From: an uncultured Selenomonadales bacterium
Lineage (GTDB): Bacteria; Bacillota; Negativicutes; Selenomonadales; Selenomonadaceae
DNA length: 64,000 nucleotides
Reading direction: 5' to 3'
Assembly: GCA_946183785.1 (NCBI GenBank)
Contig: CAMHCS010000010.1
Span: 1 to 64,000 of the forward strand
Shown here: piece by piece, positions 10,777 to 12,969 of the stretch
Position numbering within the stretch: the stretch's first letter is position 1
How the letters are laid out: every line of letters begins with the position of its first letter
Notes under the pieces: model-generated
The model's input: the letters and a program-made list of their open reading frames with translations, nothing else
Told to the model about the DNA's origin: nothing
Databases searched by the model: none
Made by a program: the position numbers and the translations under genes

Positions 10777-11163
10777 CTAAACGCTTTTCTGCTCCAAATA
10801 TTGCCTGACCTTCTCGTAAAACTCTTTAGCGTGCTCATATTGCATTTCTGCATCCGGCTTTGCCACTACATAAAAATCAGCGTAGTCGCTGTTATTCCGC
10901 AAAATAAACGCCTTGCCAACATAATCCGAATACTTTTCCTCAAAAATCCCGGTCTTGATATAGTGTTGGCGAAAATAGCTGATCACGGCAGAATGCTTTT
11001 TGAAGTCTATTTGCTTTTCGGCCAGCAAGCTGCGAATCGTGTGGAAAAAAGCATAATAGGAACGATTGATTGAATCTTTGAGATGTCCGGCCTCCATTTC
11101 AAGCTTGGCAGCCGCCAACCGTTCCTGTGCGGATTCCAGTCGATATTTCGCCAAATCAACCAA
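10777..11163 (-). CDS. HEPN-domain protein, partner of MNT nucleotidyltransferase
   Basis: A 128-residue all-helical protein: 'AKYRLESAQERLAAAK', 'INRSYYAFFHTIRSLL' and 'ILRNNSDYADFYVV' match the HEPN family. The start is a TTG at 11163 with GGAGGGG 7 nt upstream; it overlaps the stop of the nucleotidyltransferase gene by 8 nt, so the two are translationally coupled. HEPN-MNT pairs are usually toxin-antitoxin modules in which the HEPN protein is an RNase. The catalytic R-x4-6-H motif is not evident: the arginine is followed by 'NNSDYADF' with no histidine. RNase activity is therefore doubtful. Confidence 0.85.
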   Translation of the reverse strand: MVDLAKYRLESAQERLAAAKLEMEAGHLKDSINRSYYAFFHTIRSLLAEKQIDFKKHSAVISYFRQHYIKTGIFEEKYSDYVGKAFILRNNSDYADFYVVAKPDAEMQYEHAKEFYEKVRQYLEQKSV

Positions 11164-11494
11164 TGCGTTTCCCCTCCGTAAAAATGTTTCGGTAATAAGG
11201 AAGCTCGTCCCGATATTTTTGGAACTCATCCACAGGAATAACGGTCGGCGAAGTGACTATATCATATTCAAGATCCATTTTGACAGTATCGTTCCAAACC
11301 TCGTCCAGCTTGCGTTGCAAATTCCGCCGTTCGCCTTTGACGAGCGCTACGAAATCGAGATCGGAACTTTCGTCGTAATCGCCTCGGGCATAGGAGCCAT
11401 ACAAATAGATACCTTGAATATCACTGCCGTACACTCTTCTATAGCTGCCTGCGACGCGGCTGCATATAGCCTCTAAATTCGGCATAGCGTTCAT
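11156..11494 (-). CDS. MNT-type minimal nucleotidyltransferase
   Basis: A 112-residue protein of the pol-beta nucleotidyltransferase superfamily: 'GIYLYGSYARGDYDESSD' continues to 'LDF', giving the GS-x(n)-DxD catalytic motif. In characterised HEPN-MNT modules the MNT protein is an antitoxin that AMPylates the HEPN toxin. The ATG at 11494 has GGGGGAG 8 nt upstream. It is the first gene of the two-gene unit. The module sits between prfA and prmC, which are normally adjacent, so it was probably inserted. Confidence 0.9.
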   Translation of the reverse strand: MNAMPNLEAICSRVAGSYRRVYGSDIQGIYLYGSYARGDYDESSDLDFVALVKGERRNLQRKLDEVWNDTVKMDLEYDIVTSPTVIPVDEFQKYRDELPYYRNIFTEGKRIG

Positions 11495-11821
11495 AGGATT
11501 CTCTCCCCCTGTTAAGCAGCAAAAACTTCATCATTGTAATTTTATCATAGCACGCCGACGCCATGTTTGACAAGAAGCGGCTGGCGCTCACTGCGCAAAC
11601 GATGGAGCGCAAATGAAAAATCCGTTAGCCGTACATTAAAAATCTATTGGAAACGCAAAGATAATAACCCAAACGCTTACTCGCGCAAGGAATCTACAGA
11701 TTTTTCACTCGGCTTGACATGTCCATGGGGGGGGGTAAAATATGCGCATAGAAAGGACAATCTGAGGTGACGGAGGAGGAGTGAGGAACAGCCGTCCGAA
11801 AAATGAAACGGAGGAATGAAC
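11495..11821. other. Intergenic region with poly-G promoter
   Basis: This 327-base gap separates the divergent MNT and secreted-protein genes. It holds the promoter at 11714-11741 and a purine-rich leader with several AGGAGG-like runs before the start at 11822. The rest is AT-rich with no convincing gene. Confidence 0.6.
11714..11741 (+). promoter_or_regulatory. Promoter with nine-G tract in the spacer
   Basis: TTGACA (11714-11719) and TAAAAT (11736-11741) are separated by 16 nt, of which the last nine (11727-11735) are all G. The tract touches the -10. Slippage in such a run would change the -35/-10 spacing, the basis of phase-variable promoters in other bacteria. Confidence 0.65.
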
Positions 11822-12277
11822 ATGAAAAAAATCTTTTCCTTGTTGTTGCTGGTATGCGTGATGGCGACCGCGCAAGTATGCAGCGCCGATGTCAAATATC
11901 GGGCAAAAGTGGATAACAGTGGCGGTATTATGACCTATATCCTCGCGCACAATAATTTGACCGCCACAGGGAAGTATCTCATCAAAGACGAATTGGATAC
12001 CATCCTATATACGTTCGACTATGATAAGGCATCCAATATTTTCACCGTGTACAGGGAAGACGGTAGCTTAAATTCACGCCGCAAATTCGAAAACAAAGTT
12101 ACGATGTACAATCGGCAATACTATGAAGACGGTTCTGAATATGAAGAGTTTAACGGAACCTATCGCAAGGAAAACGACGGCATTTTTTGGAAGGTAGGGG
12201 AGGATCACTACCATTACATTCAGCCTTATTTTACGGATGGAGCCTTAATTTTCCTTGACCGGGGTGGCAATATCTAA
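11822..12277 (+). CDS. Secreted protein of unknown function
   Basis: A 151-residue protein with a clear signal peptide: 'MKKIFSLLLLVCVMATAQ' then 'VCSADV', with likely cleavage after CSA. The mature part is hydrophilic, rich in Tyr, Asp and Asn, with short beta-like repeats ('YTFDYDKASNIFTVYRED', 'YNRQYYEDGSEYEEFNGTY'). I do not recognise a family. The ATG at 11822 is preferred to one 6 nt upstream because GGAGG is 7 nt before it. It lies behind the poly-G promoter, so expression may be switchable. Codon use is more AT-rich than the flanking housekeeping genes. Confidence 0.75.
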   Translation: MKKIFSLLLLVCVMATAQVCSADVKYRAKVDNSGGIMTYILAHNNLTATGKYLIKDELDTILYTFDYDKASNIFTVYREDGSLNSRRKFENKVTMYNRQYYEDGSEYEEFNGTYRKENDGIFWKVGEDHYHYIQPYFTDGALIFLDRGGNI

Positions 12278-12408: not shown

Positions 12409-12969
12409 ATGAACTATGTGGAAAATTTAATCTTCCCTTTGTTTGGATTTGGCGTTGGATTGAGCATTGGTTGTTTGATGGGTTTCCTTGCCGTATTCTT
12501 TTTCATGTCCGGAAGAAAATTGCATACGATAAAAATCTTATATTCATTTGATTGGTTGGAATATCTTTTGATTTTTGGAACACCCGTTGCAATCATTTTA
12601 TACCGCCAATATGATTCGAACTCAATCATCAATTTCCTAAAAATAATTCATAGCGGGTCTTTATGGCCTTTATGTTTATTGGTTATCGGATGTATTCTCT
12701 TAATTAGATGTTATTTCATAAAGGTTTATGAAGAGAATCCCTATGATCCTTCAATCCATGCAACATTACGTGCAGAAAAAGATGAATTCACTATTTGGGC
12801 AGGTATTGCATCGCTACTCGTGTTCGTACTCAAAGAGCCAGAATACCTTAGACCGGAGGAGCCAAAAAGTCTTTTAATCTTGAGTGCCTTTTATCTTCTG
12901 CTAATAATTTCTGTATACTACCGCCATTTAAGCCAAGCCATTTATATGCAAGAAGCAAAGGAAAAATGA
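12409..12969 (+). CDS. Multi-spanning membrane protein of unknown function
   Basis: A 186-residue hydrophobic protein with about five predicted membrane segments: 'LIFPLFGFGVGLSIGCLMG', 'YLLIFGTPVAIILY', 'SLWPLCLLVIGCILLIRC', 'WAGIASLLVFVL', 'LLILSAFYLLLIISVYY'. No family recognised. The start is ATG 12409 with GGAGGAG 6 nt upstream. A GGGCGCG/CGCGCCC hairpin (12365-12386) lies just before the ribosome site and could limit translation. The gene is distinctly AT-rich and ends at a strong terminator. It may be co-transcribed with the secreted protein 130 nt upstream. Confidence 0.75.
   Translation: MNYVENLIFPLFGFGVGLSIGCLMGFLAVFFFMSGRKLHTIKILYSFDWLEYLLIFGTPVAIILYRQYDSNSIINFLKIIHSGSLWPLCLLVIGCILLIRCYFIKVYEENPYDPSIHATLRAEKDEFTIWAGIASLLVFVLKEPEYLRPEEPKSLLILSAFYLLLIISVYYRHLSQAIYMQEAKEK

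Follow-up and report, generated by a model that had tools for sequence, protein, structure and literature searches.

Promoters whose spacing is altered by slippage are known chiefly from a small number of mucosal pathogens. In porA of Neisseria meningitidis, spacings of 18, 17 and 16 nt between the -35 and -10 hexamers go with high, medium and no expression, respectively, while the homopolymeric tracts of the Campylobacter and Neisseria phasomes lie mostly within reading frames. Relative to a porA promoter with 11G, surface expression was 2.2-fold lower with 10G and 13-fold lower with 9G (PMC3639595). Here we describe a promoter that is probably a switch of this kind in the genome of a diderm Firmicute (Negativicutes). 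In the window, i.e., the whole stretch of 64,000 nt that was analysed, a poly-G tract at 11727–11735 would make the promoter of a small, putatively secreted protein phase-variable by slippage. The likeness to N. meningitidis porA (PMC3639595) lies in the poly-G tract within a promoter spacer, the exported protein encoded downstream (here a predicted one), a tract length that differs between isolates or species, and the graded expression that would be expected to result. The differences are the host, the small size of the predicted secreted protein, hexamers (TTGACA and TAAAAT) that are near consensus, and the fact that one and the same switch precedes different genes depending on the species, the length variation known here being that between species. 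As in the phasomes of Campylobacter (PhasomeIt, PMC6321876) and Neisseria (PMC5953494), homopolymeric G tracts are found genome-wide at surface genes; in contrast to those phasomes, the tracts described here are in promoter spacers as well as in 5' coding regions, and they are often flanked by TGTC...AC. A search of a library of open-access papers for repeat-based phase variation in Negativicutes, Veillonella or Selenomonas returned no paper, and the paper on the V. parvula outer-membrane proteome does not mention phase variation by repeats. As a mechanism, such a switch would be of a kind already known; the part that we consider worth following is its setting, namely the exchanged cargo, the porin and adhesin genes of the same class, and the GTDB-wide bias toward export and away from a 17-nt spacing.

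The poly-G promoter in the window

The promoter is on the forward strand and consists of the -35 hexamer TTGACA (11714–11719), a 16-nt spacer, TGTCCATGGGGGGGGG (11720–11735), made up of TGTCCAT and nine consecutive Gs, and the -10 hexamer TAAAAT (11736–11741); together, the two hexamers match the consensus at 11 of 12 positions. The G9 tract (11727–11735), which is the candidate slippage site, is at the far end of the spacer from TTGACA and directly abuts TAAAAT, an arrangement that the preliminary description had read exactly, and one that has the homopolymeric tract between -35 and -10 which marks promoters of the porA type. By itself a G9 run is not rare, the mean being 0.56 per shuffled window; a run of seven or more Gs between TTGACA and TANAAT occurred in 0 of 100 shuffles of the window. 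The whole 2.93 Mb genome from which the window comes (G000; other G numbers designate the genomes compared with it) has a single TTGACA/poly-G/TANAAT site even when searched in the G6+ form, and with this we rejected the idea that the promoter is a multi-copy repeat; runs of G8 or more number about a dozen in the entire genome. A search of 380 Negativicutes genomes identified 14 such sites, versus none for the backwards pattern and none with poly-C in place of poly-G. Where an assembly is a draft, the length of a homopolymer tract may be one base off. The window contains two more homopolymer runs, a C8 (24390–24397) and a C7 (5503–5509).

We envisage a sigma-70-type promoter in which the distance between the -35 and -10 hexamers would be set by the slippage-prone poly-G tract. 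Replication slippage that gains or loses one G would change the spacing from 16 to 17 or 15 nt, and this shift would raise or lower transcription while leaving the protein itself unaltered; the 16-nt state that was sequenced is predicted to be a low one, and one or two extra Gs would give higher expression. We infer each of slippage in the population, its effect on transcription and the export of the protein. As relatives retain the tract but differ in its length, it probably serves as a random volume switch for the secreted product.

Conservation of the promoter and exchange of its cargo

Conservation within the genus extends over a segment of about 180 bp that contains the promoter and the leader, and the promoter and leader together were found in four related species, in five copies beyond that of G000. 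All six copies have TTGACA, at least the seven Gs common to every one of them, and TARAAT, while the spacer ranges from 14 to 16 nt. Four copies combine a G9 tract with a spacing of 16 nt (those of G000, of its closest relative G007, and of contigs 183 and 72 of G001), and the others have G8 at 15 nt (G010) and G7 at 14 nt (G004). Thus the tract differs in length between close relatives at an otherwise conserved promoter, as does that of porA, and it does so between species only; the variation among relatives on which the preliminary description had made its reading depend is, to that extent, present.

The gene behind this promoter belongs to what we call family A (a 153-aa frame) in G000 and G007, and to family B (about 140 aa) in the other copies. 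A comparison of profiles gave no significant match between A and B, and we rejected treating them as a single family. At the locus between prfA and prmC the intervening gene is A in G000 and G007 and B in G004 and G001, the G001 locus apparently being split over contigs 26 and 183, while in G005 (L007) only ~157 nt separate the MNT nucleotidyltransferase gene from prfA, and the promoter and gene insert are absent. As this position is occupied by A, by B or by nothing, the switch stays in place while its cargo is exchanged, or else the whole unit is missing.

The untranslated leader (11748–11821, forward strand, from a predicted transcription start) is kept between copies that carry different genes and includes a Shine-Dalgarno sequence, GGAGGA (11810–11815). 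It showed no Rfam match and no covarying pairs, and we discarded a riboswitch or other structured leader RNA on these grounds; a leader peptide was likewise rejected, as the short frame seen in G000 is not conserved among the copies. Two start codons come into question for the family A gene (11822–12277, forward strand); ATG 11822 is the more likely, because the alternative ATG 11816 nearly touches the Shine-Dalgarno sequence. The signal-peptide-like N-terminus of its product, MKKIFSLLLLVCVMATAQVCSA-D, suggests a small secreted protein. Searches with the family A protein gave nothing above the cut-off in Pfam and NCBIfam and no relative in the PDB, and its AlphaFold model is poor (pLDDT 44.5). 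The model for family B (pLDDT 69) weakly matched HP1028 (E 0.24, TM 0.44), and we take a lipocalin-like fold for family B as a weak lead only. A predicted membrane protein encoded downstream of the family A gene (12409–12969, forward strand) may share its transcript; no similar protein was found in the same place in G007.

A second promoter design at orthologous genes

The family A orthologue of G006 (78% identical) has unrelated DNA upstream, and there too the promoter spacer contains a poly-G tract: TGTCTTGC-G8-ACATCTGTGATACAAT. The family B promoter of G128, from another genus, reads TGTCTTGC-G9-ACAACGATGCTATAAT, and those of G273 (G7) and G240 (G8, the protein match being weak) are built alike. 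The second design has its G run at the -35 end of the spacer and, in addition, an extended -10 (TGn); in 17 examples, tracts of G7–G10 are combined with spacings of 15–18 nt. The exceptions among A and B orthologues are G115, with G6 only, G230, which is tractless, and G140 and G142, whose sole tract is far upstream; in addition, the loci examined for weak, distant family A matches in other genera contained no G7+ tract. Most close A and B genes thus have a promoter with a tract of at least seven Gs, built to one or the other of two non-homologous designs, although G8+ runs are scarce in G000.

Poly-G promoters across GTDB

A scan of GTDB with the pattern TTGACA-N7..10-G8+-TANAAT, which admits spacings of 15–18 nt alone, yielded at least 124 sites in at least 120 stretches (L052–L171); viral contigs contained eight such sites. 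By a crude signal-peptide rule applied to the gene behind each promoter, 70 of 104 (67%) of these genes among the matches listed looked exported; the controls gave 4 of 33 (12%) for ordinary promoters (TTGACA/TANAAT) of those stretches and 105 of 1455 for random positions. The modal tract among the matches listed was G9, not the minimum of G8. The spacings were also unlike those of ordinary promoters: among the matches listed, 23, 46, 14 and 41 poly-G promoters had spacings of 15, 16, 17 and 18 nt, respectively, the corresponding numbers for ordinary promoters being 1, 5, 28 and 6. A 17-nt spacing was therefore found in 14/124 (11%) of poly-G promoters among the matches listed versus 28/40 (70%) of ordinary ones (Fisher p = 3e-12), and when one site per genome was counted the values were 12/100 among the matches listed versus 20/31 (p = 3e-8). 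To our knowledge this avoidance of 17 nt by poly-G promoters has no prior description. Such a bias would be expected if most assemblies had captured states of low expression; if the 18/17/16 scheme of porA applies, the peaks at 16 and 18 nt would be the off and on states, respectively.

A second regularity points another way. In genomes with several poly-G promoters, the spacing was equal in 27 of 39 pairs where 11 were expected, and this was also true of dissimilar promoters of one genome (16 of 21 pairs), in both cases among the matches listed. Such coherence agrees with stabilising selection for a spacing particular to each lineage, and it is the main argument for a fixed class of promoter, in which the poly-G beside the -10 and the off-17 spacing would serve a constant purpose, the promoters being weak, dependent on an activator or on geometry, and dedicated to exported proteins, with the length differences between species reflecting slow drift. 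The retention of G9/16 in four of the six copies of the window promoter, despite 11–20% divergence of the flanks, is in keeping with this, and along with the G9 tract identical in G007 and the tractless distant homologs of family A it would also count against switching. We nevertheless consider a fixed class unlikely, as near-identical or identical half-spacers differ by G7/G8 and by G8/G9/G10, and as promoter function cannot explain the 5' coding tracts in surface genes of the same genus that are described below. The G7/G8 difference is in a promoter common to G007 and G002, ~98% identical over some 440 bp, where the promoter region differs solely in this respect; we regard this pair as the cleanest apparent sign of slippage. 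The other is in one Clostridia genome with four promoters that have an identical half-spacer, AAAATGC, and tracts of G8, G9, G9 and G10.

Poly-G tracts at other surface genes

Slippage-driven phase variation, the reading that we prefer, is further favoured by the poly-G tracts that the genus has at other surface genes. An SLH-domain, OmpM-like porin is preceded by a poly-G promoter in G000 (G8), G004 (G9), G010 (G8) and G005 (G9), with a matching promoter in G006 (G8), all at spacings of 16–17 nt; the G000 tract (contig C33, 20886–20893, L207; relatives L222, L231, L239 and L276) belongs to a second poly-G promoter of that genome. In the family that contains Veillonella, one poly-G promoter precedes a YadA-type trimeric adhesin. 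Relatives also have runs of G7–G12 in the initial codons or the 5' part of genes for TPS-domain exoproteins, autotransporter-like proteins and flagellin; the loci concerned (L223, L238, L225, L250, L251, L252 and L214) are candidate frame-shift switches. The proposal of the preliminary description, a candidate phase-variable switch for a secreted protein, finds good comparative support in these tracts, in the conserved tract with its differing length across relatives, in the second design at the same genes and in the G7/G8 sister promoter; what speaks against free switching is the uniform spacing that independent poly-G promoters have within some genomes.

Poly-G runs of the family, in promoters and at coding starts alike, often have TGTC(C/T)NN to their left and (G)ACA to their right (e.g., L207, L223, L238, L250 and L252), for which hairpin-assisted slippage or a binding site are candidate reasons. 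Among the matches listed, 88 G7+ runs have TGTC before and AC after them versus 11 with the reversed pattern, an enrichment that would suit a protein-binding site in which the G run and its flanks (TGTC...ACA) are recognised and length is of little weight. We think this improbable, as the window copy is without the ACA arm, at least three of the five other copies have AGTCC rather than TGTCC, and many of the flanked runs fall inside coding sequence. More improbable still is a chance homopolymer or an assembly artefact at a promoter that is not in use or does not respond to it, since, even with ~0.56 G9 runs expected per shuffled window and homopolymer length being what an assembly determines with the least certainty, the tract is kept in six copies (G000 and four other genomes) and recurs at orthologues with unrelated upstream DNA.

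Wider distribution and neighbouring genes

Beyond this locus, we suggest tentatively, as a possibility rather than a probability, that poly-G-spacer promoters may be a widespread and mostly unrecognised device for exported proteins, with a range reaching from Negativicutes and Clostridia as far as Treponema and Saccharibacteria. A spacing kept one or two bases away from the optimum of 17 nt would represent either a low state one slip away from full expression or a dedicated weak class, and in Negativicutes these promoters would form part of a phasome that includes the outer-membrane SLH porin. The same device at genes for secreted proteins, porins and adhesins of diderm Firmicutes, with length differences between orthologues, would imply that commensals diversify their surface as mucosal pathogens do. 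The loci identified here form a concrete list that can be checked in existing deep metagenomes, and the avoidance of 17 nt is a quantitative and easily checked regularity of poly-G promoters.

Divergent from the promoter in the window are HEPN and MNT nucleotidyltransferase genes (10777–11494, reverse strand), a typical toxin-antitoxin-like pair; partner genes differ from species to species.
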